Positions 53,492 to 64,000 of a stretch of DNA of 64,000 bases are shown one piece after another. Within the stretch, counting starts at the first letter, position 1, and the number at the start of each line of letters is the position of its first letter. The stretch spans positions 1-64,000 of the forward strand of contig JAHEDG010000008.1 of the NCBI GenBank assembly GCA_024641335.1. The letters are read 5' to 3'. A model generated the notes under the pieces. That model was not told where the DNA came from and did no database searches. It was given only the letters and a program-made list of their open reading frames with translations. The translations under genes were made by a program, and so were the position numbers. Source of the stretch: Candidatus Zixiibacteriota bacterium. GTDB lineage: Bacteria; Zixibacteria; MSB-5A5; UBA10806.

Positions 53492-55408
53492 TTATTCTGT
53501 CCTTTTGAGAATTATCTGTTTATCGGCCTCGGCCCTGGCTGTATTGAAGAACCTGGCCAGAGATTTATTGGCCGACGGCGGAAGATATGATTTTTTCAGA
53601 CCGAATCCTCTGGTAATGGTGACCGAGTTTTCGGCCTGGCGGGCGACGGAGTATATTTCTCCGATATGGCTGTTCAGAGAATAATTTTTGGGCAGCGATT
53701 CGACCTCGAACTGGGGGGCGATATAGAATGTTATCCTCTCGAACTCGAATCTCGGTCTTTTGAGCATAATCGGGTATCGTCTTTGAGAGTCGGGGATATT
53801 AGGCAGATCTTCCCATCGGCCGAGAAGATCCATCGGCATATAGGCCCGTCGGGCGAACGGCCTGATAATCGGATCTGTGGTAAACGAATAGGCTATACGG
53901 TAATCGTCATTGGCGGAATCGGGCGAGAAAGCGATGAATTTTCCCAGTCGAGCCCCGGGAAAGGAGCTGGTCAGTTTTCTTTCCCAGGGCATTTTTCGCT
54001 GTTCCTCGTCGAAGCTTAGAAGATATGACGATATTTCCGGTATCATGGCCCCGGAATATATTTCGGTAGCCTCGCCATGAAGCGCCCCATCCTGGTCGAG
54101 ATAGAGCTTCAGGTGAATAGCCTTGCCGTTTTCCCGATAATCCACATCGGGGATACGGGACAAGTTTCCGGCGGGCTCATCGATCCGAAGAATAGAAGCT
54201 CCCTGATCTTCGAACGGAAGAACTCCCAAATCGCTGACCGGATAAAACGGATCCGCCCAGAGAGTATCGCCATCGATGAAGCAGGCGACTATCAGCCTGT
54301 CAAACCAGAACAGGGCAGGCAGCTCGTCGAGGGGCGCGGTGACATTGCGGGTGGCTGTCAAATATAAGCCGCATGGTACATTCAGATCCTCGAGCAATCC
54401 ATATAGAATGGCGGCGCTATTGCCTTGGGTGCCGCGCCGTTTTTCGATAGCGTCGTCAACGCTCCGCGCCAGGGTGACATCGGAATACTGGGATCTGAAA
54501 TTTCTCCTCACCCAGGTGAACGCCCCGGCCGCTTTGTGTCTTATGTCTCCGGAGACATTTTCGAGCGAATCGATTACCGGATCGAGAGAAGATCCAGATT
54601 CGAGGAAATTCTCCAGTTTATCACCATAAAGCCGGGAAATCAGGAGCCAGTCTACTTTTTGAGTTTCGGGATCAGGCCAGTTTCTGTCCAGGTAAAGAGA
54701 ATAGAATACGCCGGGGATAATTTCCTCGAAGGTCGGGGAAAACTCCTCGTCGTAGAGACCCTGAACATCAGCGGCTATCCACTTATATTTAATTCCGCCG
54801 GAACCTCCGATTCCCTTAAATCGCTCTCTGATCTCATAGGCGGGAAAAGCCGGTGAGACGGCGAATTTGAATACCCATGAATCCGGGATAGTTAATACGA
54901 CTATGGCGGAATCCACAGGGATGGTCTTTCCAAAAAATCTTTTGCCGGCAATACTGGCGTCCGTGGATCTGATAGTCCATTCCAGATGAAGGGCGGCTCC
55001 CGGCTCGGCATGACGGAAATTAATGAAGATCCTTTTGCTGTCGTCGGTAATGTTCCGGGTTACTATATCTTCCTCATCCGACTGGAATATTTCTCCGTCG
55101 GGCAGAACGGTAAAGGCCTTGATATCGATTCGATCGTTTTTTCCCAGCACCGGAGTGGCGGTTCTGGAAAGCGCTGTTCGGCCCCGTTCGGCCAGCACGA
55201 TTTCAGATTTATAATATCGAACATAATCATAACCCCCGTTGCCGTCCGGCCAGATATGAGTAGAGTCATATACCATCGTATAATATCCCATAAGCTCTTC
55301 ATACAGGGGCTGGGCTTTCGCCGCGTTCGGGAAGAATATAATCGACAAAACAAGACTTAATACAAAACGGGGAATTATCCCATTCCGGTCACTTCGATAT
55401 AAAGACAT
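53492..55408 (-). CDS. DUF3857/transglutaminase-like secreted protein with degenerate active site
   Basis: The protein is about 638 residues from ATG 55408, where a signal peptide follows (VLSLVLSIIFFPNAAKAQ); the longer frame to 55534 is unlikely. The N-terminal DUF3857 beta domain (DRIDIKAFTVLPDGEIFQSD) precedes a transglutaminase-like core and a C-terminal beta domain. In the core the Cys motif reads RRGTQGNSAAILYGLL, with Ser where the nucleophile should be. The His position reads FDRLIVACF; only the Asp (TLWADPF) is kept. It is probably catalytically inactive and may bind glycans or peptides. It overlaps the upstream paralogue by 20 nt. Confidence 0.8.
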   Translation of the reverse strand: MSLYRSDRNGIIPRFVLSLVLSIIFFPNAAKAQPLYEELMGYYTMVYDSTHIWPDGNGGYDYVRYYKSEIVLAERGRTALSRTATPVLGKNDRIDIKAFTVLPDGEIFQSDEEDIVTRNITDDSKRIFINFRHAEPGAALHLEWTIRSTDASIAGKRFFGKTIPVDSAIVVLTIPDSWVFKFAVSPAFPAYEIRERFKGIGGSGGIKYKWIAADVQGLYDEEFSPTFEEIIPGVFYSLYLDRNWPDPETQKVDWLLISRLYGDKLENFLESGSSLDPVIDSLENVSGDIRHKAAGAFTWVRRNFRSQYSDVTLARSVDDAIEKRRGTQGNSAAILYGLLEDLNVPCGLYLTATRNVTAPLDELPALFWFDRLIVACFIDGDTLWADPFYPVSDLGVLPFEDQGASILRIDEPAGNLSRIPDVDYRENGKAIHLKLYLDQDGALHGEATEIYSGAMIPEISSYLLSFDEEQRKMPWERKLTSSFPGARLGKFIAFSPDSANDDYRIAYSFTTDPIIRPFARRAYMPMDLLGRWEDLPNIPDSQRRYPIMLKRPRFEFERITFYIAPQFEVESLPKNYSLNSHIGEIYSVARQAENSVTITRGFGLKKSYLPPSANKSLARFFNTARAEADKQIILKRTE

Positions 55409-57203
55409 GACGTTGATTCCTGCGGGAGAGAATAAAATCCCGGAAAGCGTTATAATCGTCGGCCGGAATAATCCCGCCCGAAAACAAGTATCGTCGATGA
55501 AACACCGCGTTATCCAGATCGAACGACATTTCATCCAGAAACTCGAAATTTTCCCGGACCCAGTTGTCCCGGTATTCAGGAGCGTCGATCATGTTACCGG
55601 AGGCTCCGGGAATTCTGACGGTTTCTTCGAGACTGATGGAAGCGGGGCCGCAATACGTACCATCCCGAACATCGGTAAAGATTTCATCCAGAAGAAACGC
55701 AACCAGAGGCGATCCGAGAGAAACACCGCGGGAATTATCGTAATCCCCTGCGGCTATGGTAAAATAGCCGCCAATGATCAGCGAATCGGCGGAATTTTTT
55801 CTGACAATGAAATCCTCGGAAGAGAATTTCCATCCCGATTCCCTTAGGAACATTCCGGTTTCGTCGGCTAGAACGTTTCTATTATTATCTCTAAACAACG
55901 TATTATACTTGCCCGCGGCGTCGTTGGCTAAAACGATATTTAAATCTACTATCAGCGTACTATCTGATTTTCCCGAAAGGTCGAAACACCACGAGATAAG
56001 AGCGTCCGGATCAGGGCCGTCGGGAACCACCCTTAGTCCTGAATAGCCGTCGGTGGCCAGATAGCTTCTGCCTCTGAGCCTTAATGGCGCGAAGGCGAAG
56101 GTCGAGGATTGATCACTGGGATCGAGTATGAATTCTCGTCCATTATCCCTGATCACAGCCACGGCATGATCGAAGAACCCGGGCCAGGGGTGAAGATCCC
56201 TGACGTCCGGGTGTCCGTAGGTCGATATGAGAGCGGGATAAGACTCGATGCCGATAGACCTGTACATGGCGCTGATCAATACAGCCTGGTCTTTGCAATC
56301 TCCGAAACCTCTCCATATAATATCGTCGCATTTATGCGGGCTGAAATCCCCCTTGCCTATTTCGAGAGCGTAATAGATTACAGAATCGGCGACAAACCTG
56401 AATATTGAGTCGAGGCTGTCGGCATGATCGTGAGAATCATCAACCACTATAGCGGCCAGATCGCCGGCCTCGGACAGGGATGTTTCAGTATCGGAGCTTA
56501 ATCCCGCGAAAAAACGTGCCACGTCGAACCAGGAACGGCAATCGTATTCGATTCCGTTATATATGAATGTCTCGGAGCTTAAATATAGATAGACGCTGTC
56601 GGGGCAGGAATTCGGCTCTGCAGGAAGATCCGGCAGGTTATCGGCATGGAATATCCTGATGTTGTCAGCGGATTCGCTTTCAAGGCCCGATGAATCGAAA
56701 TTGAGTTTTACCCGGTTATCCCACCTTACGCGAATGGTGAATCTATTGGTAAAGCATGAGGGGTCTCTTTCGAAACGCGGGAGATAAAGCAGGCTTTTTA
56801 TTTTCAGTTTATATTCATAGTACAGTCTGGCGCCGAGAACCGGGAATCTTAGTGAGATCAGGGCGACCTGAATTCCTCCGAACCGGGCCGCTTCAGGCGA
56901 CGAGAGCATGCGTATATCGTTCCATCTGAGCTTGAACTTTCGACCGTCAGGCAAAAGAGTGTATCCTTTGATATCATCGATTTCGATATAGTCATTGATC
57001 GGTACCGCCAGCTCGGCGTAATCGAAGCCGTCTTCAGAGTAAATTTCGAAGCTCTTATGGATTTTTACCGTAGCTGTCAGGTTTCCCTTTATATCGATAT
57101 CAGCGCTATCCAGAATGCAAATGGCCCCGGCCGCCCGGGCGGGATTCGCCGGAAGCAGAACTCCGGAAATCGCTATTATTATGGAAAGTAATACGGCTTT
57201 CAT
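55389..57203 (-). CDS. DUF3857/transglutaminase-like secreted protein, active-site residues intact
   Basis: This 604-residue protein has a signal peptide (residues 1-24, ISGVLLPANPARA). The DUF3857 domain contains KIHKSFEIYSEDGFDYAELA and IKGYTLLPDGRKFKLRW. The transglutaminase core has the full triad: Cys in GFGDCKDQAVLISAMYRSIG, His in FFDHAVAVIRDNG and Asp in FILDPSDQS. A C-terminal beta domain follows. It is probably periplasmic or surface exposed and acts on peptide amide bonds, but substrates are unknown. Its stop overlaps the next paralogue, and it starts 42 nt after gene A of the membrane module, suggesting co-transcription. Confidence 0.82.
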   Translation of the reverse strand: MKAVLLSIIIAISGVLLPANPARAAGAICILDSADIDIKGNLTATVKIHKSFEIYSEDGFDYAELAVPINDYIEIDDIKGYTLLPDGRKFKLRWNDIRMLSSPEAARFGGIQVALISLRFPVLGARLYYEYKLKIKSLLYLPRFERDPSCFTNRFTIRVRWDNRVKLNFDSSGLESESADNIRIFHADNLPDLPAEPNSCPDSVYLYLSSETFIYNGIEYDCRSWFDVARFFAGLSSDTETSLSEAGDLAAIVVDDSHDHADSLDSIFRFVADSVIYYALEIGKGDFSPHKCDDIIWRGFGDCKDQAVLISAMYRSIGIESYPALISTYGHPDVRDLHPWPGFFDHAVAVIRDNGREFILDPSDQSSTFAFAPLRLRGRSYLATDGYSGLRVVPDGPDPDALISWCFDLSGKSDSTLIVDLNIVLANDAAGKYNTLFRDNNRNVLADETGMFLRESGWKFSSEDFIVRKNSADSLIIGGYFTIAAGDYDNSRGVSLGSPLVAFLLDEIFTDVRDGTYCGPASISLEETVRIPGASGNMIDAPEYRDNWVRENFEFLDEMSFDLDNAVFHRRYLFSGGIIPADDYNAFRDFILSRRNQRHVFISK

Positions 57204-57245: not shown

Positions 57246-57998
57246 CTAAAGGTTAAAATAATTTCCCAGAGCCGAAACCCAATCGATCAGAAAGTTGAAT
57301 CTACCGATCAGGAGAGAAATCCTGGCCATGACCGTATATCCGAAAGTAGCGCCGAATCCTATCATCAGGGTCCAGATTCCGATTTTAGCCGCCGCGCCCA
57401 GGACACCAGTATGTTCAGCAGAGAAATAAAAATAAGCAAGTCCGCAAACACACCCTAATAATATAATAATATCTCCGATGCCGGTCCAGATTCCCATCAT
57501 ACTGTTTCCATAATAGTATAAAGTGGAGAGGTCGGAGACGATAGTGTTATATATTATGACCGGATTGAACATATTGGCCGCCACCTGCCGAATTACGAAG
57601 CTTTGAATATACAGCGGCAAGGCTACTCCGGCGGAGATTCCGAGATAATAAGCGATGGGCCAGCGGGAGATCCAGGCCTTGCTCTTGAAAAAGCGGGTGA
57701 ACATCAAACACCCGATAACACCGGGAGTCAGATTTGCCAGCAATATCCCGATTTTGGCCGGAATGGATCCTCCGGCGGCTCCGAAGGCCGAAACCGAATC
57801 GACCAGAGGTTCGATCCAGAGGTCGGTCAGGGATGTATGATATAGTATAGCTATCCAGTAACCGGCTGAGATTCCGACTATCAGATGTTCGGCGAATCTA
57901 TAGAACGGGTTATCGCGATAGAGAAACGAGAAAATGCTGAGGGTCAGAAAAGCCGCGACAGTCATCCAGATCAATGTACCGAGAGAAATCTGTTCCAT
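57246..57998 (-). CDS. Membrane module gene A: seven-helix protein, unknown function
   Basis: This 250-residue protein has about seven transmembrane helices. It has the motif YRDNPFYRFAEHLIVGISAG near residues 27-46, the helix IGILLANLTPGVIGCLMF and a conserved end GATFGYTVMARISLLIGRFN. It is a clear paralogue of 61762-62493, which keeps the same motifs. I recognise no named family and see no catalytic motif. The gene order D-C-B-A in one compact run with overlaps suggests a membrane complex. Charged DNPFYRF between helices 1 and 2 is the best candidate for a functional loop. Confidence 0.7.
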   Translation of the reverse strand: MEQISLGTLIWMTVAAFLTLSIFSFLYRDNPFYRFAEHLIVGISAGYWIAILYHTSLTDLWIEPLVDSVSAFGAAGGSIPAKIGILLANLTPGVIGCLMFTRFFKSKAWISRWPIAYYLGISAGVALPLYIQSFVIRQVAANMFNPVIIYNTIVSDLSTLYYYGNSMMGIWTGIGDIIILLGCVCGLAYFYFSAEHTGVLGAAAKIGIWTLMIGFGATFGYTVMARISLLIGRFNFLIDWVSALGNYFNL

Positions 57999-58007
57999 AA
58001 TACCTGT

Positions 58008-58835
58008 CTAAATCCTTTTCCTGGTGGCGAAAAAAGCGATATTTCCGATGATGATGAAAATAATTATGAAGATGTGGGCGACAGAGACCGAGGTCATGGC
58101 CCTGTTGGCGATATCTTTGGGACGCCCGATGAGCTTTTCGTATTCGGCCGCGCCCTTGAGGCCGCCCATTAGTCCGAAAATCTGCTTCGACTGCAAAAAG
58201 GCGTAATAATCGGTGGCGATGACGGCGGTAACTCCCAGGGCCAGCGGCGCCCCGTAACGGCCGTTGGCGTTGTTGATCCAGGAATCGACACCCGACGTGG
58301 CGTTGATATTCACGATGCAGTCGACGTTCGAGTAGTTGTTCACTCCGGCCATCATAGGCAGTTCGTCGAGATTATTGTTATAATAGTCTTTGGGGAACGG
58401 TTTGCGGAAATTTTCTCCCATATTCAGGATGACGATATCGGGATACGGCTTATAGCCCAGGAAAACATAATCTTCGCCATAAGTTTTATCGAATTCAGCG
58501 GCAACAGTCCGCAAATCCTGTTCGATCAGGAGAACTCCCTGAATTTGAAGAGCGGTGGTGATAACTTTGATGCCTCTGGAAAAACAATGTCTTAAAACAG
58601 CTTTGGCCATCGGCTGCAGTTCGGCCATGGTATCAGGCGAATACTCCATCGGCAGCATTATAATAGTTCCCCTCGGCAGAGATTCGAGCCGATCGTAGAC
58701 CGATTGCACTTCGGGAGTGATTTTGATCGGCAGACGTATCACTGTGAGCATCGGGAAAAAAGTGGCCGCGCCTATGACCAGATAGACCCATCGACGGTCC
58801 AGATTGAGCATTTTATTCCAGAATCCGGCGGCCAT
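58008..58835 (-). CDS. Membrane module gene B: alpha/beta domain between two membrane anchors
   Basis: This 275-residue protein has an N-terminal helix (about 15-35, VYLVIGAATFFPMLTVIRL), about 200 residues of alpha/beta character and a C-terminal helix (FIIIFIIIGNIAFFATRKR). The soluble part starts with PEVQSVYDRLESLPRGTIIM. It continues with LQPMAKAVLRHCF, PDIVILNMG, IATDYYAFL and LMGGLKGAAEYEKLIG. Its paralogue at 62500-63408 shares this layout and the last motif. No known family was recognised. The start overlaps the stop of gene C in TAATG. Confidence 0.7.
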   Translation of the reverse strand: MAAGFWNKMLNLDRRWVYLVIGAATFFPMLTVIRLPIKITPEVQSVYDRLESLPRGTIIMLPMEYSPDTMAELQPMAKAVLRHCFSRGIKVITTALQIQGVLLIEQDLRTVAAEFDKTYGEDYVFLGYKPYPDIVILNMGENFRKPFPKDYYNNNLDELPMMAGVNNYSNVDCIVNINATSGVDSWINNANGRYGAPLALGVTAVIATDYYAFLQSKQIFGLMGGLKGAAEYEKLIGRPKDIANRAMTSVSVAHIFIIIFIIIGNIAFFATRKRI

Positions 58836-59485
58836 TATTTACCTCCCCCGAGCCAGGTTCTCTCTACCCCAAGTATGATCTTCAGCGAGGTGGCGGCCAC
58901 ACCCAAACCGACCCCAATATATATAGCCCGTTTGGCGGCAGTATTGGGATAGTCCAGAATGTACCTGGCGAGATCGGAGATTCTCGTCCCCTCCGGCATC
59001 CAGGCGGTTAAGGCGTCGCCGACAGGTATTCTGCCCAGCATAACTATTACGGCCGAGGCCAACAGGAGAGTTGCCAGGACAGTCTTGGCCCTGAACGCTC
59101 TGTAGGCGGCGGAAGCGATAAAAAACGCCAGCAGAGAGAACATTGTGGCCTGCACCGGCGAGAGGACATAAAAGTACATCTTCATGAAAAGTCCTCTGGG
59201 GTCCTGGACAGCCTCAGGGGACGATAATCCGAGAACGGTCATAAAAACCAGCGCCCCTATAGTTACCAGGGAATAGGGCCATTTCTCCTTGCGCCTGGAG
59301 ATCTTGTCGTAATGGAGATTGACCAGGGAGCCAATTCCGACCGCCAGGGTAAAAATACCGATAATGATAGTCCAGTTGAGCGCGTTCTGGTATATGACCG
59401 CGGAGATATTATGAGGCACGAAATACTGCAGGGCCATAAAAGCCCCGCAGATAAAGACGATCACAAGAGGTACTTCTCTTCTCAT
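58835..59485 (-). CDS. Membrane module gene C: six-helix protein
   Basis: A 216-residue protein with about six transmembrane helices. Conserved blocks shared with 63410-64000 are YVLSPVQATMFSLLAFFIAS, AAYRAFRAKTVLATLLL and the C-terminal ILGVERTWLGG, which should lie on one face of the membrane. It overlaps gene B by one base and follows gene D after 46 nt. No family recognised. The small size and short loops suggest a structural or channel-like subunit rather than an enzyme. Confidence 0.7.
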   Translation of the reverse strand: MRREVPLVIVFICGAFMALQYFVPHNISAVIYQNALNWTIIIGIFTLAVGIGSLVNLHYDKISRRKEKWPYSLVTIGALVFMTVLGLSSPEAVQDPRGLFMKMYFYVLSPVQATMFSLLAFFIASAAYRAFRAKTVLATLLLASAVIVMLGRIPVGDALTAWMPEGTRISDLARYILDYPNTAAKRAIYIGVGLGVAATSLKIILGVERTWLGGGK

Positions 59486-59531
59486 CTCTGGCCGCGCTTT
59501 CTTCGGCGATGTATCATATTCATCATAATAA

Positions 59532-60782
59532 TCAGCCGCCTATTACCCAGTTTTTCAGAGCCTCCCCGGCTCCGCTGTCAAAGAGGTAAACAATAGAACC
59601 GATAAGCATCAGGGTTATAGCCATGATTTTCCCCCAGTCCTGAGCTTTCAGGGTCCCCAACTGTTGAGGTTCCTGTGAGAGATAGGCTGACGCCGCGTAA
59701 AGCTCCTCGCCCATCAGCGTATAATCGCAGGCGGCCACAAAAAACGGTATTTGAATGAGCTGATCTGTTCCGGCTATCTGGACCGATCCTGAGACAAAAC
59801 CGGTCTCCGCCAGAACCAGCGACTCGGCATAAAACATCCCCATATAGAAATTAGTGGCCGGTTTTTCTCTCAACATGGTACCATTAACCGAAGCGGTATA
59901 CGGGAATTGATCCTGGGTAACGAAATAAACATCTTTGGGATCGTAATCGTCGGGCCGGCCGGCGGAGGAATAAGCTTCCTTGACTACCTCCTGGCAGATG
60001 GTCATGACGACCGGATCGTAATTAGGCACGATAATCCTGGTTTGATATTCAGCAACCTTTTTGGCCACCCTGGCCAGAATAGTAAAAGCGGCGATGGTCG
60101 CCACCCTCGAAGCCTCTCCCAATCCGGGCACGAACAGGATCGGCCGTCCCATTTCCGTGGCTCGACCTATGGCATCATCGACAGCGTCGATACCCGGGAT
60201 GGGGCGTACATACAAGGTTCCGCCTCGTTTGGCGAGATTTATGAGATACAGAGCTGTCCCGGAAAACAGGGCCATGAATAATAAAACCAGAATTCTCTTG
60301 GTATGAAATAACTGGGCGCCGGGAACCGCTGGTCCGGCTGTTTCGGCATAGAGAGTATCACGGCCGTAAAGAGCGGCGACCTGATAATAGAAATTTTCTC
60401 CGTTTTTCAGATCGGGATCGGAATCGGAATAACCGGTAGAGCCTGCCGGAAGCCTGGTTAAAAACGAAAAGCCATCATCGAGAGAAGCCGAACGATACAG
60501 CAGATAACCATCTACAGAATTGAATATGGTATTATCTCCCGGAGCCTTGCTCCAGCTGATGGAGATAGCTCCTCCGGCGTCGTTTGGGGAATCAGCCGCG
60601 GCCAGATTTTCCGGGGGGCCGGGTTGAGGGGCAAGAGAGCTATATTTGAATACGAACACCGAATCGGGATCGACAAAGGTCATATGAGAATGCGGAGGTT
60701 GAGCCTGTGCGATGTACGCGGATAGGACCGAAAGCAGGGTTACAATCGCGAACATCGGGATTTTTTTACCGGGCTGGATCAT
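59532..60782 (-). CDS. Membrane module gene D: fibronectin-III and DUF6754-like membrane protein
   Basis: The 416-residue protein has a signal peptide (residues 10-28). A fibronectin type III domain lies at about 55-140 (PPENLAAADSP ... GYLLYRSASLDDGF ... YYQVAALYG). A helix (ILVLLFMALFSGTALYLINL) is followed by a presumed cytoplasmic domain (RPILFVPGLGEASRVATIAA, TRIIVPNYDPVVMTICQEVV, DYDPKDVYFVTQDQFPYTAS, FFVAACDYTLMGEELYAAS) and a last helix near the C-terminus. This resembles the uncharacterised DUF6754 family as I recall it. It is the first gene of the D-C-B-A run. ATG 60782 is used; an adjacent TTG at 60785 is possible. A second copy (D') may lie just outside the window. Confidence 0.72.
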   Translation of the reverse strand: MIQPGKKIPMFAIVTLLSVLSAYIAQAQPPHSHMTFVDPDSVFVFKYSSLAPQPGPPENLAAADSPNDAGGAISISWSKAPGDNTIFNSVDGYLLYRSASLDDGFSFLTRLPAGSTGYSDSDPDLKNGENFYYQVAALYGRDTLYAETAGPAVPGAQLFHTKRILVLLFMALFSGTALYLINLAKRGGTLYVRPIPGIDAVDDAIGRATEMGRPILFVPGLGEASRVATIAAFTILARVAKKVAEYQTRIIVPNYDPVVMTICQEVVKEAYSSAGRPDDYDPKDVYFVTQDQFPYTASVNGTMLREKPATNFYMGMFYAESLVLAETGFVSGSVQIAGTDQLIQIPFFVAACDYTLMGEELYAASAYLSQEPQQLGTLKAQDWGKIMAITLMLIGSIVYLFDSGAGEALKNWVIGG

Positions 60783-61001
60783 CAAACTCTTTTCCGGTTT
60801 TCAGGAATTCCGTCATCGCGATCAATACAATCGATTCGAGGTTTTATTCCCGAAAGTGGTTACCTGTTTTTTGTTTTCAACGATTCCGAATCATGCTCGC
60901 GCCGAAAGAGGATTATTTGGCCGCTCTACCGGAATCGCGACGAACAAGATAATATAATCGAGCGATCACCGCACTATTTTTCTGGCAGCCGGGATCAACA
61001 G

Positions 61002-61445
61002 CTAATGATCCATCGTCGGCGGCTGATATTGATAGAGCGAAGTCATCATCTTGATTTCAGCGTCCTTCACCGAGATATGATGCTTCAACAAATCTCTTAT
61101 AGACAGGATACCGAGCAGTCTGTCTTCCTCAACGATGGGCATATGACGGCATCCGACCTGCTTCATCATAGCCAGGCAGGTTTCATAGGAATCGGCGGCC
61201 TGGCACACAACCACATTGGTGGTCATAATCTCGGATACCTTAATTTCTTTGGGATCCTTGCCCGCGCTGACCACGCGATTTAAAATATCCCGTTCGGTGA
61301 ATATGCCTTTCAGTTTACCGTCTTCCAGAACTACAACCGCCCCGATCTTGGCCGCCGTCATCTTGGAGGCCGCGTCCATAACGGTCATCCCGGGCGTAAC
61401 GTAGGTCAGACGTTTTCCCGCCAGAATATCTTTAGCCTGTTCCAT
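61002..61445 (-). CDS. CBS-domain protein
   Basis: A 147-residue protein made of two CBS repeats (a Bateman module), which usually binds adenine nucleotides. The repeats are VTPGMTVMDAASKMTAAKIG ... GIFTERDILNRVVSAG and IMTTNVVVCQAADSYETCLA ... GILSIRDLLKHH. It has no attached enzyme or channel domain. ATG 61445 is placed well behind AAGGGG. It lies between the two copies of the membrane module, 216 nt before gene D and about 310 nt after A', so a regulatory link to the module is possible but not shown. Confidence 0.9.
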   Translation of the reverse strand: MEQAKDILAGKRLTYVTPGMTVMDAASKMTAAKIGAVVVLEDGKLKGIFTERDILNRVVSAGKDPKEIKVSEIMTTNVVVCQAADSYETCLAMMKQVGCRHMPIVEEDRLLGILSIRDLLKHHISVKDAEIKMMTSLYQYQPPTMDH

Positions 61446-61761
61446 GATCATCCCCTTTATCTATGAGACCTGTTTACCAGCTAAGGTCCCGGCTTCTGTA
61501 AACCTAATTGAATTGCCGCTGGTCATTGCCGGGCGAACCCTCTTACTAATAATCGTACAATACCAATTTACCATTTTAGTCCGTTAAAACATAGCTTAAA
61601 ATACTACAACTCATAACTTCTTTGATTTCATCAGCTTTCATCACCGCCGGATTCTTTCCTATCCGTTCACTATGCCTTATACAAATCAGAATGAAAATTC
61701 GATATTCCTTTTGATAGTTTTTGAATAAAGTCAGGGTGAAGCCCCTGAAACGCGGATTATA
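61446..61761. other. Intergenic region between gene A' and the CBS gene
   Basis: This holds the CBS ribosome-binding site and presumably its promoter, and the 3' end of the A' transcript. I see no gene, strong terminator or structured RNA. Confidence 0.4.
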
Positions 61762-62493
61762 TTATCGGATCAGGCCGAGCCAGTCGCCGAAGAGGAAATA
61801 CAATCGTCCGATCAGAAGGGACATACGAGACATGACCGTATAGCCGAATGACGCTCCGAAAGTTACCATCAGGAAATAGATACCGATTTTGGCGCTGAAA
61901 CCGAAGGCCCCTTTGTGCTCCTTGGAAAAATAGAAATAGGCCAGACCGGTCAAAGTGCCGATGACCAGGACCAGGTTTCCGAGGAAAGCGGCGAAATAAT
62001 TATCGAGAGATCCGCCGGCGGCCAGGGCCGAAATTTTATTCAGATCTATAAGAGGAATTACGGTTTTCTGAAGCTGGCTCAGGAAGTTGGATTGGAAATA
62101 GGTGATCATATAGAGTCCGGAGGTGGAACCGACAACGACGGCCAGCGGCCAGCGGGAGATCCATCCGATACTGGGGAACAGACGCATCAGCATCATCAGC
62201 CCAAGAATACCGGCCAGAACATACCATATCCGCTCATCCCATTGTCCGGCTAAGATATTTTGAATGGCGCCGTTATCCTCGGATAAGCCGAGCATTCTGG
62301 TAATCCCGAGATTATCGAAAAGTTTGGGCAGAAGATTCTGGAAATAAAGCGATACGAACCAGTATCCGGCAGAAATCCCCACGAACAAAGCTTCGCAGAA
62401 TTTATAGAAAGGATTATCCTTATAGAGAAACGATGTTATTCCTATGGTCAGGAAAGCGGCAACCCAGACACCGAATTCTGTGGATAAGTGCAT
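61762..62493 (-). CDS. Membrane module gene A': seven-helix protein (second copy)
   Basis: This 243-residue paralogue of 57246-57998 has the motif YKDNPFYKFCEALFVGISAG and the end GASFGYTVMSRMSLLIGRLY, plus YFYFSKEHKGAFGFSAKIGI matching YFYFSAEHTGVLGAAAKIGI of copy 1. It has about seven transmembrane helices. The two copies differ strongly in the middle, so the duplication is old. It follows B' by 6 nt and is the last gene of the C'-B'-A' run. Confidence 0.7.
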   Translation of the reverse strand: MHLSTEFGVWVAAFLTIGITSFLYKDNPFYKFCEALFVGISAGYWFVSLYFQNLLPKLFDNLGITRMLGLSEDNGAIQNILAGQWDERIWYVLAGILGLMMLMRLFPSIGWISRWPLAVVVGSTSGLYMITYFQSNFLSQLQKTVIPLIDLNKISALAAGGSLDNYFAAFLGNLVLVIGTLTGLAYFYFSKEHKGAFGFSAKIGIYFLMVTFGASFGYTVMSRMSLLIGRLYFLFGDWLGLIR

Positions 62494-62499
62494 TATTTA

Positions 62500-63408
62500 C
62501 TAGCCTTTCCTGCCTGATTTACCCCGGGTGGCGAAATAAGCGATATTCCCGATGACAATAAATAATATTACGAAGATATGAGCGGCTGTCTGGCTGACCA
62601 TAAACATGGTAGCCTTGGCCTTATGCCCGACAACCTTTTCCAACTCGGCGGCGCCTTTCATGCCTCCCATCAGACCCGACAACTGACCGCTGTCGAGATA
62701 AGGATAGACCTGGGGAGCCTGTACGGCTGTATTTCCGGCTCCGCAGGCGACATGGAATCTATCGACCGCGAACTGGACCCACTCTACCGTGCCTGGGTAA
62801 CCGGCGGAGAGATTGAAAATAAAATCGAAATCGGAAAGTTGGTTGAGTCCTCTCATTATATCAAATTCTTCAATAGGTTTTCCCAACCTTAGATCGGAAG
62901 CGAAGGCGGCTTTAATGGACGATCCCATCCTCTGAATAACCAATTCGTTTCCAGCCTGGAAACCGAGGTTGACAAAATCGATTCCGTATCTGGCTGTATC
63001 CGGGCCGACGACAATAAGGTCGGTTCCGAAATACAGCGTATCACCGTTTTCCACGATGAATTCGTCTTTGGCTTCATTAATAGAGACAAGCGCCTTATTG
63101 GCCTGCATCGGCCCCTGCGGCCAGAGTCCGATGATCACGAACCTGAGATTGTTTTGTATGAAGTAACGGAAACCGGATTCGGCCATCGGCTGCAGCTCCG
63201 GTTCGGAGCCGGGATCGTAATCGCAGGCGACCATGATCCTGGATCCCGACGGGAGGCTGCTGATAGCGTCGTAGAATATCTGCACCTCGTCGGTGACCTT
63301 GATATTGATTTTTATGCCGAGGAAAATCGGAATGCTGAGAGCCAGGAAGATTACCAGGAATATGATCCGGCGGTCGATAGCCAGGAGTTTTTCAAATATT
63401 CTCTGCAT
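62500..63408 (-). CDS. Membrane module gene B': alpha/beta domain between two membrane anchors (second copy)
   Basis: This 302-residue paralogue of 58008-58835 has an N-terminal helix (IIFLVIFLALSIPIFLG), a soluble domain starting DEVQIFYDAISSLPSGSRIM with LQPMAESGFRYFI and LMGGMKGAAELEKVVG, and a C-terminal helix (FVILFIVIGNIAYFATRGK). Compared with copy 1 it has about 27 extra residues, mainly in the soluble domain. It abuts C' (1-nt gap) and A' (6-nt gap). Confidence 0.7.
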   Translation of the reverse strand: MQRIFEKLLAIDRRIIFLVIFLALSIPIFLGIKINIKVTDEVQIFYDAISSLPSGSRIMVACDYDPGSEPELQPMAESGFRYFIQNNLRFVIIGLWPQGPMQANKALVSINEAKDEFIVENGDTLYFGTDLIVVGPDTARYGIDFVNLGFQAGNELVIQRMGSSIKAAFASDLRLGKPIEEFDIMRGLNQLSDFDFIFNLSAGYPGTVEWVQFAVDRFHVACGAGNTAVQAPQVYPYLDSGQLSGLMGGMKGAAELEKVVGHKAKATMFMVSQTAAHIFVILFIVIGNIAYFATRGKSGRKG

Positions 63409-63409
63409 C

Positions 63410-64000
63410 CTAATCGCCTCCCAGGTAGGTCCGCTCTATCCCGAGAATTACCCGGAGGGCTGTGGATATGAGTCCCAGGGAGATTCCGATCATAATAGCT
63501 CTCTGGCCGGCGACATTAAAGAAATTCATGATGATATTGGAGAGATTGGAAATCTGCCATCCTTCTGGCAAAAAGAACACTCCGCTTAGCCAGTCGCTGA
63601 AAGGCGTCCGTCCGATCATAACCACGAACGCGGCCAGCAGCAGAATCGTAGCCTGGGCGTTGCGGGCTCTGAACGCCCGATATGATGCCGAGGCGACATA
63701 GAACGCCAGCATGGCGAACATGGTAGCTGAAAGCGGAGAATAAACGTTGATATAAAGCCAGTCGAAACTGGTCCCCGGCTCCTGGAACCTTCTGCCGCCG
63801 GAGAAGAAGAAGCCGGCAATGACTATAAGCAAAAAGGAGATTATGGTAACAACAGCGTAGAAGCGGTCTTTATCCTTCTTATAGATCTTATTGAGCGAGA
63901 TCTTCAGAAGATTCAAGGCTCCCAGCCAGATGGCGCAGGCGGCAATGATGGAGAACCAATCCGAGAACATATCGGCCATGAATCCCAACGGGTAATGTGG
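63410..64000 (-). CDS. Membrane module gene C': six-helix protein (second copy), start beyond window
   Basis: This paralogue of 58835-59485 has YSPLSATMFAMLAFYVASAS, YRAFRARNAQATILLL and the C-terminal ILGIERTYLGG. An ATG at 63979 and a TTG at 63988 exist. However, the frame stays open to the window edge, and the residues encoded there (PHYPLGFMADMF) align with PHNISAVIYQNA of copy 1. The true start is therefore probably upstream, outside the window. The gene order predicts a D' gene just beyond the edge. Confidence 0.7.
   Translation of the reverse strand, partial: PHYPLGFMADMFSDWFSIIAACAIWLGALNLLKISLNKIYKKDKDRFYAVVTIISFLLIVIAGFFFSGGRRFQEPGTSFDWLYINVYSPLSATMFAMLAFYVASASYRAFRARNAQATILLLAAFVVMIGRTPFSDWLSGVFFLPEGWQISNLSNIIMNFFNVAGQRAIMIGISLGLISTALRVILGIERTYLGGD

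Follow-up and report, generated by a model that had tools for sequence, protein, structure and literature searches.

A duplicated four-gene membrane module with a DUF6754 protein in Zixibacteria and Cloacimonadota, predicted to encode an inner-membrane complex

The final part of the window considered here, a stretch of 64,000 nucleotides (nt) from a Candidatus Zixiibacteriota bacterium (assembly GCA_024641335.1, contig JAHEDG010000008.1, C55 below, positions 1 to 64,000), carries two cassettes of membrane protein genes named D, C, B and A, which an earlier note on the same DNA had described as a duplicated module. The positions and the minus-strand orientation that it gave for A, B, C and D of cassette 1 and for A', B' and C' of cassette 2 were all confirmed (Table 1), and so was the tight packing of the genes: in cassette 1 D and C are separated by 46 nt, C and B share one base and B and A are 9 nt apart. 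When the bases past position 64,000 were read, as the note had proposed, a D' gene was found, with C' starting at a TTG codon at 64069, 15 nt from D'. The motifs picked out for A, B and C were each present in both window copies, namely YRDNPFYRF/YKDNPFYKF in A, LMGGLKGAAEYEK/LMGGMKGAAELEK in B and ASAAYRAFRA/ASASYRAFRA together with ILGVERTWLGG/ILGIERTYLGG in C, and the identity between cassettes 1 and 2 amounts to 42% for A, 38% for B, 39% for C and 42% for D. The source genome (Zixibacteria, 2.86 Mb in 98 contigs) holds four full cassettes, two on C55, one on C5 and one on C44; a search with the C alignment returned exactly four C genes, one per cassette, and all four D copies score over the DUF6754 cut-off.

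Table 1. Cassette genes and adjoining genes at the end of the window (window positions unless given with the contig; aa, amino acids)
Gene	Position	Strand	Length	Features and evidence
D, cassette 1 (type II)	59532..60785	-	417 aa	signal peptide, FnIII ectodomain, transmembrane helix, DUF6754 (predicted cytosolic), transmembrane helix
C, cassette 1	58835..59485	-		six transmembrane helices, N-terminus predicted inside; ASAAYRAFRA and ILGVERTWLGG predicted on cytosolic side; alignment, topology
B, cassette 1	58008..58835	-	275 aa	transmembrane helix, Rossmann-like alpha/beta domain (predicted extracytoplasmic), transmembrane helix
A, cassette 1	57246..57998	-	250 aa	polytopic, 6-7 transmembrane helices; alignment, hydropathy
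C', cassette 2 (type I)	63410..64000, on to C55:64069	-	219 aa	
B', cassette 2	62500..63408	-	302 aa	
A', cassette 2	61762..62493	-	243 aa	
D', cassette 2	C55:64085-65662 (L006:85-1662), past window end		525 aa	
CBS-domain protein	61002..61451	-		between cassettes; PF00571 3e-27
Secreted DUF3857 + transglutaminase-like protein	55389..57203	-		directly downstream of A; PF12969 1.4e-9, PF01841 6e-5
Second DUF3857-type protein	53492..55534	-		downstream of A; local neighbour; PF12969 5.8e-6

The cytosolic domain of D is a full-length member of PF20539 (DUF6754), matching profile positions 3-249 of 257 at 1.1e-115 and 385.6 bits (curated cut-off 27 bits), while the FnIII domain is well modelled by AlphaFold2 (predicted local distance difference test, pLDDT, of 78 for D) and is backed by Foldseek, where the matches listed for the D model were all FnIII-type structures at about 1e-5; the previous description of D as an FnIII plus DUF6754-like protein therefore holds. 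PF20539 carries no function and does not include A, B or C, for which no family over cut-off was found in Pfam or NCBIfam and no convincing weak match was obtained when the members of their alignments were compared one by one with Pfam. Sequence profile searches of the PDB gave nothing for A and C, chance-level matches for B and weak FnIII matches only for D. TMD0_ABC was matched weakly by 8/31 C members (best 1e-5; C' reaches 16.2 bits against a cut-off of 27) and OppC_N by 2/35 B members (best 0.012), beyond which no ATPase or permease domain of ABC transporters was seen among A-D; the TMD0_ABC and Acyl_transf_3 matches of C looked like helix-bundle noise and were set aside. The AlphaFold2 model of B (pLDDT 93; predicted template-modelling score, pTM, 0.88) has a Rossmann-like domain of alternating beta strands and alpha helices between two membrane helices.

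The orientation of these proteins was predicted from the lysine and arginine residues (K+R) beside the membrane. For D the values are 0.9 on the ectodomain side, 6.0 on the DUF6754 side and 0.3 at the other end, and by the positive-inside rule the ectodomain is predicted to lie outside and DUF6754 in the cytosol. Along C the values alternate (1.8/0.7/3.4/0.8/3.1/0.9/1.1), which gives six helices with the N-terminus inside and puts the motifs YRAFRAR and GIERTYLGG on the cytosolic side, and the two ends of B (3.2 and 2.5) are placed inside, so that its domain would lie outside. Six helices for C and two anchors for B had been proposed before and are both borne out; A, formerly read as a seven-helix protein, is indeed polytopic, with hydropathy leaving its helix number at six or seven. 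The best-conserved regions are DUF6754 and the cytosolic loops of C. The D ectodomain is exchanged while DUF6754 stays near-invariant, and may consist of one or two FnIII domains, of a region of ~650 aa in Cloacimonadota or of a PQQ propeller in Armatimonadota, where some D proteins have almost no ectodomain; in the Armatimonadota loci L073, L079 and L084 FnIII is replaced by PQQ/BamB-like propeller repeats. Two internal relationships were considered and rejected. Homology between B and DUF6754, with the two domains facing opposite sides of the membrane, is not claimed because hhalign gave probabilities of 2.7% and 0.3% despite a like order of strands and helices in the two models, and for A and C as homologous halves the profile-profile values were 8% and 1.5%.

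The same four genes recur together well beyond this genome. Among the loci fetched, 93 D genes have 2.6 kb or more of sequence downstream, and after 87 of these C, B and A come next on the same strand, a figure to be taken as indicative, the sample being non-random and including some duplicate loci. The six exceptions comprise one D-D-C-B locus fetched twice, two loci (L112 and L117) that are poor evidence of true exceptions because their breaks in order sit at runs of N, and two from Armatimonadota. PF20539 exceeds its cut-off in 18/58 sampled Armatimonadota, and B was found in 17/18 of the D-positive genomes and in 0/40 of the D-negative ones (Fisher p 9e-14, inflated by shared ancestry). 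Chance association is excluded, since in dozens of the loci fetched the subunits are again found next to one another, mostly at E < 1e-50. Homologues are thus not found mostly apart from each other, nor does any of A-D match a characterised family that could explain the others, and the proposal of a multi-subunit membrane complex whose parts are kept jointly is supported by the gene order and by the co-occurrence of B and D. Elsewhere, PF20539 is present in 133/133 genomes of the window's own phylum (Zixibacteria), mostly in 2-6 copies, in 122/125 Cloacimonadota genomes and in two small phyla reached via the genomes G133 and G134, where 13/14 and 16/17 genomes have it; all 14 well-known control genomes lack it.

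Several side observations were made on these loci. In G328, a D-negative genome from the phylum of G133, four B-type matches lie at a contig end (G328:C125:30142-34855, in locus L129, G328:C125:24000-34862), three of them in tandem, and simple open reading frame calling shows one B and one A gene there. Extra B copies stand after the cassettes in L020/L127, L075 and L077, and in several Armatimonadota (L080-L085) a short-chain-dehydrogenase-like gene lies directly upstream of D.

Pairwise distances between the subunits correlate at r 0.82-0.87 for all six pairs (Mantel test, 78 complete cassettes, 0/500 permutations as high). This shows that each cassette is inherited as a whole, although such a correlation cannot tell co-evolution and shared ancestry apart. 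A clade of 40 cassettes, termed type I, is identical in the A, B, C and D trees (support 0.955, 0.999, 0.985 and 0.998, respectively) and has a support of 1.0 in the concatenated tree. Both types are kept in Zixibacteria and Cloacimonadota, the window having one of each, and the old duplication suggested from the window is upheld by the same type split in all four gene trees and its presence in two phyla. The usual Zixibacteria array is Ia, Ib, II (e.g., L108, L109, L119 and L128); that of the window consists of Ia (cassette 2) and II (cassette 1), without Ib and with the CBS-domain gene between them, and the placement of the C44 cassette is weak, the relevant split having a support of 0.415. 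Six Cloacimonadota genomes were sampled at two loci each, one of type I with a short D and one of type II with a D of ~950 aa, two of the six assignments being made by D length and neighbours, with the cassette absent from the tree. In the Cloacimonadota loci L094, L099, L101 and L103 the type II cassette has, behind its A gene and in the same orientation, an extra D gene of ~950 aa.

A mobile, selfish or defence element might likewise be expected in several copies per genome, but its presence would hardly be universal, or nearly so, in two large phyla, with ancient and congruent trees; with no PADLOC family matching the module at E <= 0.01 and no match in a plasmid search with D or a phage search with C, the defence, plasmid and phage readings were rejected and we regard this explanation as extremely improbable. 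That A-D form one physical membrane complex is, in contrast, predicted with high confidence: a strict gene order, inheritance of whole cassettes, two polytopic subunits and one domain on each side of the membrane make up the pattern of an obligate complex.

Across phyla, the protein most often encoded next to the cassettes is a member of PF13941 with ~610 aa (MutL/GlmL superfamily; E 4e-127, 425 bits, cut-off 27), often accompanied by a ~375 aa protein with a lipoyl-like stretch, by one of ~130 aa and by a small protein with two transmembrane helices. This module adjoins cassettes in Zixibacteria and Armatimonadota, in the phylum of G134 and at a single Cloacimonadota locus, and in Armatimonadota PF13941 (E <= 1e-30) was found in 17/18 D-positive and 3/40 D-negative genomes (p 1e-10); in the source genome the ATPase copy is on a separate contig (C10:16679-18127, 435 bits to PF13941). 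Since the ~610 aa protein scores below the NCBIfam cut-offs for GlmL (NF040745, 229.5 vs 475; NF040744, 219.9 vs 600; TIGR01319, 168.9 vs 204.05), the linked ATPase is a separate branch and not GlmL, from which it also differs in being ~150 aa longer, in having the lipoyl-like ~375 aa and the ~130 aa partners and in usually occurring without mutase genes. In L117:8999-16001 genes of the TolQ, TolR and TolB types come after those of the PF13941 ATPase and the ~375 aa protein, and genes of similar size follow the ATPase module in L111. In L130 (G283:C116) C-B-A, a two-transmembrane-type protein and the ~130 aa protein directly precede genuine Or-4 GlmL-related and ornithine-racemase-like genes.

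The tie of GlmL relatives to mutase metabolism, and the one cassette beside genuine Or-4/ornithine-racemase-like genes, speak for the idea that the complex is a membrane-bound enzyme for lipid, quinone or cofactor chemistry in which Rossmann-like B and alpha/beta DUF6754 would be catalytic, as do the invariant polar residues of B (E72, E233, H254) and D (R208, E211, R306, E321, K380). However, no gene of metabolism keeps its place beside the cassettes from phylum to phylum, A-D show no known cofactor motif and their alignments no invariant Cys, and the ~610 aa PF13941 protein falls short of the equivalog cut-offs for GlmL; we consider an enzyme of this kind improbable.

The remaining neighbours vary between cassettes. 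In the source genome cassette 1 is followed by the DUF3857 proteins and cassette 3 by a TPR/TonB_C protein, and cassette 4 is flanked by Amidase_3, Peptidase_M23 and S11. The DUF3857 and transglutaminase-like protein next to A belongs to a neighbour cluster found in L013, L014, L015, L017 and the window, and is a local neighbour, in all probability not one of the core parts. The presence of peptidoglycan-active and Tol-type neighbours, of FnIII and PQQ/BamB-like ectodomains and of the module itself in nearly all Zixibacteria and Cloacimonadota would suit an envelope scaffold or tether, by which the outer membrane or the wall is anchored to the inner membrane with the FnIII or propeller ectodomain of D serving as the arm; this is nevertheless unlikely, given that conservation peaks not outside but in the cytosolic DUF6754 and C loops, and that hardly any ectodomain is left in some Armatimonadota D proteins.

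The CBS gene sits where many relatives have a third cassette (type Ib), and its family is also seen beside the cassettes in L013 and L014, an association local to close relatives. Its position between the window cassettes is one of the points that could be taken for a receptor or signalling complex, in which the D ectodomain would sense a ligand, DUF6754 and A-C would relay the signal to the cytosol and the two types would be different receptors; a variable outer part on a fixed cytosolic domain is a receptor-like pattern, and the multiplicity of cassettes within a genome (most Zixibacteria have 2-6 copies of DUF6754) would fit as well. No kinase, cyclase or response regulator was found as a fixed partner, however, presence in 133/133 and 122/125 genomes with one conserved array is unusual for a ligand receptor, and two polytopic subunits with an extracytoplasmic alpha/beta domain are more than a receptor needs, so that this reading too is rated as having little likelihood, about the same as that of a tether.

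The explanation that we favour, with a probability of roughly one in three, is an obligate inner-membrane complex that couples an event in the cytosol to the movement or assembly of a cell-envelope substrate. D, C, B and A would be obligate subunits of a single complex, in which C, with six transmembrane helices, and A, with six or seven, may form the membrane core, D would hold its variable ectodomain (FnIII, the ~650 aa region or a PQQ propeller) outside and the near-invariant alpha/beta DUF6754 domain in the cytosol, and B would present its Rossmann-like domain on the outer face between its two anchors. The cytosolic event would be sensed or driven via DUF6754, probably aided by the linked GlmL-superfamily ATPase, and would be coupled to the envelope substrate, with specificity possibly set by the D ectodomain and by the cassette type (I or II). 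Fixed DUF6754 and C loops combined with a freely exchanged D ectodomain fit a fixed engine with an exchangeable outer part, and it is because of this pattern and of the envelope-gene neighbours (Amidase_3, Peptidase_M23, S11, TPR/TonB_C, DUF3857 and Tol-type) that transport or assembly is proposed. Taken separately, an envelope role for the complex stands at even odds. Of the functions held possible in the earlier note (transport, envelope linking or signalling), we lean, as a tentative suggestion, towards a machine for transport or assembly linked to the envelope, which the ATPase may serve.

A number of observations weigh against this explanation. The flanking envelope genes change from cassette to cassette and could be a coincidence, and the searches with A-D brought up neither a substrate nor a transporter signature nor a family that binds ATP. 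K+R on the domain side of B, at 3.0 over two edges, is not low, its outside placement leaning mainly on the positive ends, and in the PDB the B model matches only generic Rossmann-type folds with a template-modelling (TM) score of ~0.3 and E of 4e-4 at best. D lies on another contig than C-B-A in two Armatimonadota genomes and likewise in G283, which was left out of the 93 as its D contig ends too soon. Finally, the ATPase trio occurs without D in G190 and G201 and the ATPase pair without D in G310, so that the module accompanies the cassettes without belonging to them, and is not exclusive to D-C-B-A.

The statement in the earlier note that no described system has this gene set is in agreement with our results, as no characterised family was matched by A-D, an open-access literature search returned no paper naming DUF6754 or PF20539, and a search for such a complex in Zixibacteria or Cloacimonadota found nothing relevant. 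Tol-Pal/ExbBD and PilM-type systems are energised or ATPase-assisted envelope machines with membrane partners. With these, including the PilM-type actin-like ATPases, there is an analogy only, in that several membrane subunits, an envelope context and a linked ATPase of the actin-like superfamily are found here as well; in contrast with Tol, Exb, Mot and pilus systems, A-D have no match to MotA_ExbB, ExbD, TonB or pilus families, and the TolQ/R/B-type genes of L117 are separate neighbours. The B model shares its alternating beta-alpha fold with the OtsA and WaaG glycosyltransferase domains and with short-chain dehydrogenase (SDR) enzymes, from which it differs in its low TM-score, in being anchored at both ends and in its predicted location outside the cytosol. 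As no known kind of system can be named from the evidence, D-C-B-A is rated as a putative new kind, the fold search having covered B and D in the PDB and A and C having been compared at the sequence level.

We tentatively propose, as one possibility among several, that the cassettes represent an undescribed class of membrane machine, composed of A and C without known relatives, a periplasmic Rossmann-like B and DUF6754, with a GlmL-superfamily ATPase module as its energiser or chaperone, a machine whose two types would already have been present in the common ancestor of Zixibacteria and Cloacimonadota and which would perform an envelope job done otherwise in other diderms. Neither Pfam nor NCBIfam has an entry for three of the four protein families (A, B and C). 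If confirmed, the complex would be a new kind of membrane machine and would place DUF6754 in a biological context, a function other than in mutase metabolism would be suggested for one branch of the GlmL/MutL superfamily, and the two ancient types predict two substrates or two partners. Since it occurs in nearly all genomes sampled from several phyla, with as many as six copies, and in 0/14 controls, it is likely to be basic to the lifestyle of these bacteria.

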